The notes beneath the pieces are model-generated. The model saw only the letters and a list, made by a program, of their open reading frames with translations. It did no database searches and had not been told where the DNA came from. Position numbers and translations under genes: made by a program. A stretch of 64,000 nt of DNA, from assembly GCA_944393725.1 (NCBI GenBank), contig CALYBC010000009.1:122595-186594 (forward strand), given 5' to 3'. Positions 7,112 through 53,852 of this stretch are shown piece by piece; within the stretch, counting starts at the first letter, position 1; each line of letters opens with the position of its first letter. Source of the DNA: an uncultured Alphaproteobacteria bacterium (GTDB lineage Bacteria; Pseudomonadota; Alphaproteobacteria; RF32; CAG-239).

Positions 7112-7187
7112 GGGTGCGTAGCTCAGTTGGTAGAGCAACTGACTCTTAATCAGTGGGTCTGGGGTTCGAACCCCCACGCGCCTACCA
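7112..7187 (+). tRNA. tRNA-Lys(CUU)
   Basis: A 76-base cloverleaf. The acceptor GGGTGCG pairs with CGCGCCT, the D-arm is TAGCTCAGTTGGTAGAGC, the anticodon loop CTCTTAA gives anticodon CUU, and the T-arm is GGGGTTCGAACCCCC. CCA is encoded. A second, partial copy of its 3' part lies downstream (see the entries at 7221 and 7362). Confidence 0.97.
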
Positions 7188-7219
7188 ATAAAAAAGGTCT
7201 CTTTATGAGACCTTTTTTT
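7176..7219 (+). repeat. 44-bp direct repeat, copy 1 (tRNA-Lys 3' end plus terminator)
   Basis: Covers the last 12 bases of tRNA-Lys, including CCA, and the whole terminator. It is identical base for base to 7362-7405, 186 bp downstream. Confidence 0.95.
7191..7219 (+). terminator. Terminator of tRNA-Lys
   Basis: Stem AAAAAGGTCTC / GAGACCTTTTT with loop TTTAT and seven T in total. An identical copy recurs at 7377-7405 after the duplicated tRNA end. Confidence 0.88.
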
Positions 7220-7220
7220 G

Positions 7221-7361
7221 TTGGATAGGTAATGTCGGGTTTGAACCCCAGAGGCTGGGGTTCGACTACCAGCGAAAGCGATACGGGGGTATCGCGGTGA
7301 GCGGAGCTCATGAGCGCCAGTGCAACTCGAGCCTTTTATAAAAGGCGAAGAGTAACCCTTT
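7221..7361 (+). other. Structured tRNA-adjacent element A
   Basis: A non-coding stretch between the two 44-bp repeats. It begins with a degenerate inverted copy of the tRNA-Lys T-arm (GAACCCCAG, 7243-7251), then a direct copy of the T-arm 5' half (CTGGGGTTCGA, 7255-7265). A core of about 88 bases (7266-7353, starting CTAC and ending AGT) follows, then AACCC leading into repeat copy 2. Hairpins: GAACCCCAG / CTGGGGTTC, GCGATAC / GTATCGC (7278-7295), and GCCTTTTATAAAAGGC (7331-7346). The core shares its layout with the element after tRNA-Pro at 53322. No ORF is credible here. Confidence 0.8.
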
Positions 7362-7405
7362 ACGCGCCTACCAATAAAAAAGGTCTCTTTATGAGACCTT
7401 TTTTT
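7362..7405 (+). repeat. 44-bp direct repeat, copy 2 (tRNA-Lys 3' end plus terminator)
   Basis: Exact copy of 7176-7219: the 3' acceptor strand with CCA, then the same terminator hairpin and T-run. It has no complete tRNA in front of it, so it is a tRNA fragment, not a second gene. Confidence 0.95.
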
Positions 7406-53234: not shown

Positions 53235-53311
53235 CGGGACTTAGCTCAGCCTGGTAGAGCGCTTGCTTTGGGAGCAAGATGTCGTTGGTTCGAATCCAAT
53301 AGTCCCGACCA
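53235..53311 (+). tRNA. tRNA-Pro(UGG)
   Basis: A 77-base cloverleaf. The acceptor CGGGACT pairs with AGTCCCG, the D-arm is TAGCTCAGCCTGGTAGAGC, the anticodon loop TTTGGGA gives UGG, and the T-arm is TTGGTTCGAATCCAA. CCA is encoded (53309-53311). Its 3' portion is duplicated 160 bp downstream. Confidence 0.97.
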
Positions 53312-53321
53312 AAGTTTGAAG
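53293..53321 (+). repeat. 29-bp direct repeat, copy 1 (tRNA-Pro 3' end)
   Basis: Runs from the middle of the tRNA-Pro T-loop (AATCC) through CCA and ten bases of flank. Identical to 53453-53481. Confidence 0.94.
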
Positions 53322-53452
53322 TAAAAAATAATTATTTGTACTATTGGATGAGAACCAACGGGCGTTGGTTCGACTACAAGGAATAGGCGAGACGCGGGTA
53401 TCGCCGATTTTGTTTTTTATAAAAACAAAAATTCCGCAGAGGCAACTTTAGT
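53322..53452 (+). other. Structured tRNA-adjacent element B
   Basis: A non-coding insert between the 29-bp repeats. It carries an inverted copy of the tRNA-Pro T-arm region (ACTATTGGAT, three altered bases, then AACCAACG, 53340-53360) and a direct copy of the T-arm 5' half (CGTTGGTTCGA, 53363-53373). A 79-base core follows (53374-53452, starting CTAC and ending AGT), leading into AATCC of repeat copy 2. Hairpins: AACCAACG / CGTTGGTT; GGCGAGAC / GTATCGCC (53386-53405, one mismatch); TTTTGTTTTT / AAAAACAAAA (53408-53430). Layout and core motifs match the element after tRNA-Lys at 7221. Confidence 0.8.
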
Positions 53453-53481
53453 AATCCAATAGTCCCGACCAAAGTTTGAAG
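53453..53481 (+). repeat. 29-bp direct repeat, copy 2 (tRNA-Pro 3' end)
   Basis: Exact copy of 53293-53321, including T-stem 3' half, acceptor strand and CCA, without a complete tRNA before it. Confidence 0.94.
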
Positions 53482-53534: not shown

Positions 53535-53852
53535 TTGAAAGTTTTTCAGAGAAAAAAAGAAGATTTTATCTGCTCTAATTGTGGAGCAAAAGTTAAAGGC
53601 AACGGATATACCAATCATTGTCCGGAGTGCTTATATTCAAAGCATGTAGATATTAATCCGGGTGATAGGGCTTGCGAATGCGGGGGATTGATGGAGCCGG
53701 TGGATGTGGAACTAAAGGACGGAAAGTATGTGTTGTTGCATCGGTGCTTAAAATGCGGATTTGAACGTAAAAATAAAATATCTCCCGAAGATAATTTTGA
53801 TAAAGTAATTGCGTTAGTAAAAGAAAAAACTCAGAGATTGAAACATAATTAA
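53535..53852 (+). CDS. RNHCP domain zinc-finger protein
   Basis: A 105-residue protein of the RNHCP family: FICSNCGAKVKGNGYTNHCPECLYSKHVD and DR-CECGG-M, then HRCLKCGFERKN (patterns). Four Cys pairs suggest two zinc sites. The conserved family sequence RNHCP appears here as TNHCP. Function unknown. The start is TTG 53535 with GAAGGG upstream. A terminator follows immediately. Confidence 0.82.
   Translation: MKVFQRKKEDFICSNCGAKVKGNGYTNHCPECLYSKHVDINPGDRACECGGLMEPVDVELKDGKYVLLHRCLKCGFERKNKISPEDNFDKVIALVKEKTQRLKHN

Follow-up and report, generated by a model that had tools for sequence, protein, structure and literature searches.

Gene-less units inserted at the T-loop of tRNA genes in a family of uncultured Alphaproteobacteria

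The tRNA-Pro(TGG) gene of an uncultured Alphaproteobacteria bacterium (assembly GCA_944393725.1, contig CALYBC010000009.1, positions 122,595 to 186,594, a stretch of 64,000 nucleotides that we call the window) is followed by a short structured element, unit B, and an element of the same plan, unit A, follows tRNA-Lys(CTT) in the same window. The two share a core, and each carries arms that match its own tRNA. How does such an element come to lie behind a tRNA gene, and how do its arms come to fit that particular tRNA? Here, we describe the family to which A and B belong: gene-less units, mostly 140-190 bp long, found downstream of many tRNA genes in this uncultured group. In tRNA-Glu and tRNA-Ser(CGA), and probably also in tRNA-Pro(GGG), a whole unit with its own terminator is inserted between nucleotides 57 and 58 of the tRNA gene (57|58). 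The tRNA keeps its 5' part and gains a 3' half supplied by the unit, and its old 3' half is displaced downstream. The shared core, together with arms matched to the neighboring tRNA, means that some process fits the units to their target. No description of such units was found in the open-license literature.

Unit layout and the insertion boundary

Each unit runs from tRNA nucleotide 58 through CCA to a terminator, an inverted copy of the T-arm, a short loop, a direct copy of the 5' half of the T-arm (T5') and the core, and the displaced original tRNA 3' half comes right after the core. Units are single or in tandem, with tandem copies spaced by about 165-190 bp. The initial annotation had described inverted T-arm, direct T5', core and repeated 3' half for B, and had seen the same plan in A, at tRNA-Lys (7112-7187); both descriptions are borne out by the sequence layout. 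It had also placed B at 53283-53481. That extent did not stand: because the unit boundary is 57|58, the inserted block is 53293-53452. The features are as follows.

53235..53311, + strand: tRNA-Pro(TGG) (ARAGORN, Rfam RF00005); nucleotides 58-76 (53293-53311) are the copy supplied by unit B
53293..53452, + strand: unit B, 160 bp, the block between nucleotides 57 and 58 of tRNA-Pro(TGG), from the repeat start-to-start spacing of 160 and the family-wide nucleotide 58 boundary
53340..53360, + strand: unit B, inverted copy of the tRNA-Pro T-arm and the start of the acceptor 3' strand
53363..53372, + strand: unit B, direct copy of the T-arm 5' half (CGTTGGTTCG), which pairs with the inverted copy (repeat family and RNA fold)
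53373..53452, + strand: unit B, structured core ACTAC...AGT; covariance model R1, 90 bits (not an independent score, B being among the three sequences used to build R1); helices P1 and P2 covary family-wide
53453..53471, + strand: displaced original tRNA-Pro 3' half (nucleotides 58-76), from the exact 29-bp repeat
7112..7187, + strand: tRNA-Lys(CTT); nucleotides 58-76 (7169-7187) come from unit A
7169..7353, + strand: unit A, 185 bp, with 3' half, terminator, arms and core, read off the sequence
7237..7252, + strand: unit A, inverted copy of the tRNA-Lys T-arm (GGGTTTGAACCCCAGA)
7255..7264, + strand: unit A, direct T5' copy of tRNA-Lys (CTGGGGTTCG)
7265..7353, + strand: unit A, structured core; R1/R2 match at G000:C9:129855-129922
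7354..7373, + strand: displaced original tRNA-Lys 3' half with CCA, slightly diverged

The two copies of the tRNA-Pro 3' half lie in an exact 29-bp direct repeat (53293-53321 and 53453-53481), and the 21 nucleotides at 53340-53360 are an inverted copy of 53283-53303, with 90% complementarity. In A, a second copy of the unit's terminator comes after the displaced 3' half. In B, comparison of the flanks finds a different, hairpin-forming sequence there, which is taken as the native terminator. Downstream of B, the open reading frame at 53535-53852 has the appearance of a small cysteine-rich protein and is a candidate RNHCP-like protein.

Across the family, the 3' copy after the core begins exactly at nucleotide 58 in 56 of 71 scored cases and extends through CCA; a clear 3' copy was lacking in another 22. 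In 66 first units, the terminators after the first and the second CCA are clearly different in 42% and alike in 53%, for which later tandem amplification can be the source. Comparison with element-less orthologues identified the second terminator as native and the first as foreign at Ser(CGA) (G043, G095 and G129 against G000), at Pro(GGG) (G023 against G064) and at Glu (G064 against G000). Since the native terminator is the second one, the incoming unit brought nucleotides 58 to CCA and its own terminator with it. Two Arg(TCT) comparisons matched the first terminator; both genomes there carry the element or its deletion remnant. Taken together, the sequence comparisons indicate insertion at 57|58, not simple tandem duplication.

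The core persists across the host's family: a small covariance model found it in 102 of the 152 genomes and a refined one in 135, and the units adjoin 20 tRNA species. A tRNA gene is recognizable upstream on the same strand in 112 of 137 inspected copies; of the other 25, most adjoin the end of a contig or follow a tRNA 3' fragment. Among the tRNA 3' flanks of the window's own genome (1.44 Mb, 97% complete), this layout recurs after Pro(CGG), Val(TAC), Arg(CCG), Met and fMet, in truncated form after Ser(GGA), and as the arms alone, with different cores between them, after Gln(CTG), Asn, Asp and others. In a sample of the class, one genome of a different family (G340) has a unit whose arms are Pro-like, located where a contig ends. 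When 84,980 genomes were scanned for the exact motif, it stood just 3' of a tRNA at three loci only, in uncultured alphaproteobacterial or proteobacterial metagenome-assembled genomes; the remaining matches are near no tRNA and look like chance. Viral, phage, plasmid and IMG/VR collections gave no match to the units, or coding chance matches only.

A shared core with arms matched to each tRNA

The core is a conserved fold. It opens with an almost invariant CTACMA, continues with P1, which encloses P2 and a variable P3, and closes with a tail of the form GC..G.GCAAC; the P2 loop is usually GNRA-like. Among 95 distinct copies, two-sided changes are seen at 10 of the 11 base pairs that make up P1 and P2. 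Their cells pair in 92.6% of cases against 79.3% after shuffling, and none of 500 shuffles reached the covariation score. Fitting the alignment to the model favors the structure, but slid controls fall to 16-46%. P1 and P2 are thus maintained by covariation. In B, the parts are P1 GGAA/TTCC, P2 GGCGA..TCGCC, P3 TTTTG..CAAAA and the tail GCAGAGGCAACT. In Rfam, nothing but tRNA reached the gathering score, and no weak match to the core was credible.

These results refine the shared core as first described from A and B. CTAC, P1, P2 and the GC..G.GCAAC tail are indeed common, but the TTTTATAAAA hairpin is unconserved, being one version of the variable P3, and the GGGTATCGC hairpin is one version of P2. 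The multi-way junction guessed for B is obtained by RNA folding, closed by ACTATTGGAT/ATCCAATAGT at -42.3 kcal/mol, and none of 200 shuffles folded as well. Of 83 units across the family, 77 are predicted to pair the inverted copy with T5', and 38 to form the closing helix with the 3' half.

The arms follow the tRNA. Over 80 elements, 20 tRNA species and 22 T-stems, the direct arm agrees with its own tRNA at 4.80 of 5 T-stem letters (shuffled 2.88, maximum 3.23) and the inverted arm, which was placed without using the stem letters, at 4.60 of 5 (shuffled 2.58, maximum 2.94); none of 2000 label shuffles came near the observed value. In the ten isoacceptors with more than one T-stem, the arms track each variant: GACGG, GGAGG, GTAGG and GTTGG for Pro-TGG, AGACG and AGAGG for Arg-TCT, and eight more isoacceptors likewise. 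The arms matched to their own tRNA that were first noticed in A and B are therefore a property of the family.

Where an arm departs from the tRNA (n=51), the inverted copy differs alone in 33 cases, the direct copy alone in 17 and all three sequences in 1, and both arms never change alike. Because the arms depart independently, the match is to the tRNA and is not maintained by base pairing within the unit. Compensatory changes, which had been suggested as a check on the hairpins, are thus present in the core helices and absent between the arms (0 of 51 departures), and compensatory maintenance of the hairpin arms is rejected. Changes to the TTCGA motif of the arms depend on the strand: the direct copy reads TTTGA, or the inverted copy reads TTTGAA, and just 4 of about 75 tabulated elements keep both copies intact.

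The core sequences, for their part, often change tRNA. On a core tree (n=92), the tRNA label changes 51 times, against a shuffled mean of 70 and minimum of 63, and the genus changes 32 times; single nodes are weak because the alignment is short. Cores about 94-97% alike occur beside Arg(TCT), Pro(GGG), Pro(TGG) and Lys(CTT), where every one has arms of its own, and the presence of a unit at a given tRNA is patchy among close relatives. The initial annotation had proposed a mechanism that copies tRNA sequence on insertion or keeps it matched afterwards. The results support this in part: a common core between arms specific to the host tRNA is confirmed family-wide, and copying or matching is the natural reading because the arms track the T-stem within isoacceptors and the cores switch tRNA.

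Other repeated modules lie near these flanks. One (CTGGCTCGTARRGCTCAA...TAACTCGCTNCGGTCACCGC...) is seen behind tRNAs of G000 (loci L003, L007, L009 and L016) beside inverted T-arm copies, with its own terminator and sometimes in tandem (Lys-TTT). Another (..ATCTTNGAACATCTT..TTNCAGATAAAAA..) occurs in or after displaced tRNA 3' halves in either orientation (L117, 1100-1270; L119, 820-940; and the tRNA-Ala pair of L021).

How the units may move

We favor, with slightly better than even confidence, the reading that the units are gene-less cassettes integrated at tRNA T-loops, which work like tRNA-integrating islands or integron cassettes and fall under neither definition. The unit would move as a circle in which the core is joined to nucleotide 58. 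Such a circle would bear a T-arm split by the core at 57|58, and its inverted copy could pair with the T-arm on either side of the split; on one strand, this pairing would rebuild the T-arm in double-stranded form, and the core would protrude from it at the junction. The folded site might be used by a site-specific recombinase, much as integron integrase uses folded attC, or might anneal as a single strand to the target T-arm. Exchange of the folded unit with the tRNA T-loop would give the observed product.

Several points weigh against this reading. The alike terminators in 53% of first units are obtainable by tandem amplification alone. The Ser(CGA) terminators are common across genera and so may reflect one old, vertically inherited insertion, and movement of units may be rare. 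The closing helix is predicted in under half of the units (38/83), and a circular form is not observable in assemblies. Lastly, the PF00589 matches of G000, G033 and G048 include no recombinase common to carriers.

The enzymes first suggested as agents (reverse transcriptase, tyrosine recombinase and RAYT) were sought, and none fits as the common agent. Y1 transposases of RAYT type (PF01797) occur in 53 of the 152 genomes, without a match in the element-rich G033, G034 and G048; reverse transcriptase (PF00078) was found in one of nine element-bearing genomes, and an IS110 DEDD recombinase (PF01548) above cut-off in one of 11 carriers. As for PF00589, G000 has one match of 320 aa, a Xer-like length, and G033 and G048 each have a XerC/D-like pair and a few others, the Xer-type assignment being judged by length and number in these three genomes. 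RAYT/Y1, reverse transcriptase, the IS110 recombinase and a dedicated or extra tyrosine integrase are thus rejected as not common to carriers; TnpB and serine recombinases were not searched. The units themselves contain no gene or integrase. A candidate gene-bearing cassette in G013 (L268, 1100-2560) has 1.4 kb with a 266-aa open reading frame between two Glu-type units 1.6 kb apart at tRNA-Glu, its right end retaining just a short ATCACCA remnant. The stretch reads as inserted DNA whose 3' end is truncated, and it is not used as evidence.

How the arms arise can be read in other ways. It is possible, although we would not call it probable, that a mobile element re-tailors itself: a shared core, folded as single-stranded RNA or DNA, would gain direct and inverted arms copied from each new tRNA through a host activity other than a known transposase, integrase or reverse transcriptase. 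Another reading is local template switching. A polymerase would turn at the terminator hairpin, copy the tRNA 3' half backwards, turn again and copy T5' forwards, with the core entering the T-loop afterwards; the arms would match because they are copied from the neighboring tRNA. Often the inverted copy does not stop at the T-arm but carries on the terminator palindrome through the acceptor strand and a TGG that complements CCA. Inverted copies also adjoin tRNAs without this core, such as Thr(GGT) and Arg(CCT), and both arms match the tRNA independently, with no compensation. This account leaves unexplained the foreign terminator with the displaced native one and the exact 57|58 boundary at many tRNAs, and we think it unlikely overall; since the inverted copy reaches the acceptor strand and terminator palindrome, turn-round copying stays a serious rival for the origin of the arms.

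The units might instead be attachment-site remnants or satellites of islands whose tyrosine integrases target tRNA T-loops, the core being the attP arm region. Islands in tRNA genes have the same geometry, a split gene restored by a copied 3' block and a displaced fragment (PMC4383910), there are known attB sites in T-loops (Ms6, PMC1762012), and islands are present at these tRNAs, as in the fMet fragments, starting at the anticodon, that lie upstream of units. Yet a single core family serves 20 tRNA species, the units have no integrase gene, no integrase beyond the Xer type is conserved among the PF00589 matches of three genomes, and viral, phage and plasmid collections contain no match; we give this origin a low probability. 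As a further reading, the unit would be a non-coding RNA gene, domesticated and retained next to tRNA genes, with an inverted arm that pairs with the tRNA T-arm to influence maturation or level, and with mobility incidental. This would suit the covariation of P1 and P2, the GNRA-like loops, which suggest selection at the RNA level, and an inverted arm that tracks the tRNA. It sits badly with the patchy presence per tRNA among close relatives and with a unit that normally lies behind a terminator, and we judge it improbable.

Traces of islands are visible at several loci. At L129, L153 and L203, tRNA-fMet fragments from the anticodon onward precede units, as left by anticodon-loop islands; these units read as having travelled to the island's far end. 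The Trp-type unit at L262 (G000:C19:1817-3583) has no complete tRNA, and after it comes a sequence nearly identical to the native flank that tRNA-Trp has on contig C6; this is probably the far end of an island.

Comparison with known systems

In one bacterial family, then, small structured inserts have entered tRNA genes again and again and replaced the 3' half of the gene, and the 3' halves of tRNAs in this clade can come from inserts, which calls for caution. Copying of the arms from the target, if it occurs, would be a new route to site specificity and perhaps a programmable insertion principle.

Short structured non-autonomous repeats in arrays are also formed by repetitive extragenic palindromic (REP) sequences and bacterial interspersed mosaic elements (BIME), which are linked to RAYT (Y1) transposases. 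REP/BIME elements have a CTAC/GTAG-like tetranucleotide, a further likeness to the units. The units differ in lying strictly at tRNA T-loops, and Y1_Tnp is absent from several element-rich complete genomes. IS110/IS1111 elements with bridge RNA or seekRNA (PMC11208160, PMC11187229) likewise combine a structured non-coding region with adjacent sequences that can pair with the target on either side, but 10 of 11 carriers have no DEDD recombinase above cut-off and the arms of the units flank the core instead of forming internal loops. For retroelements of group II intron, retron or retroplasmid type, a reverse transcriptase would be expected in the carriers and was not found in eight of the nine genomes.

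The units resemble integron cassettes in layout: they are tandem and cassette-like, with an inverted segment complementary across the junction and a site that can fold as a single strand. Set against attC-type pairing across the junction (R''/L''-L'/R'), the predicted folds join the inverted copy to T5' in 77/83 units but to the 3' half in only 38/83. The integron box is GTTRRRY, which GTTCGAC of the units does not fit. The site of a unit is the tRNA's own T-arm, not fixed R/L boxes, and a core of about 80-90 nucleotides protrudes from the paired arms. Integron gene cassettes carry folded attC sites (PMC3053210); among the PF00589 proteins of the three genomes, no integron integrase was recognized, IntI not having been searched with its own model.

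The units work like tRNA-integrating islands and phages, where the element inserts in a tRNA gene, the incoming DNA restores the 3' part and a displaced fragment is left at the far end, as in the Islander set, in which the split gene is restored by a copied 3' block (PMC4383910); mycobacteriophage Ms6 uses a T-loop attB (PMC1762012), which matches the T-loop crossover of the units. Here, too, the tRNA is restored by a copied 3' block with the fragment displaced at the other end. The units differ in being mostly about 140-190 bp without genes, in using one core family for 20 tRNA species and in having an inverted T-arm copy, and neither an integrase in the element nor one dedicated to all carriers was found (PF00589, three genomes). 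Because there is no integrase in the unit, none in common beyond Xer and no counterpart found for the arms, we file the units neither as islands nor as integron cassettes. Inverted, target-matched arms around a common core are a combination for which we found no counterpart among known mobile elements; by insertion geometry alone, a specialist would class the units with tRNA-integrating elements.
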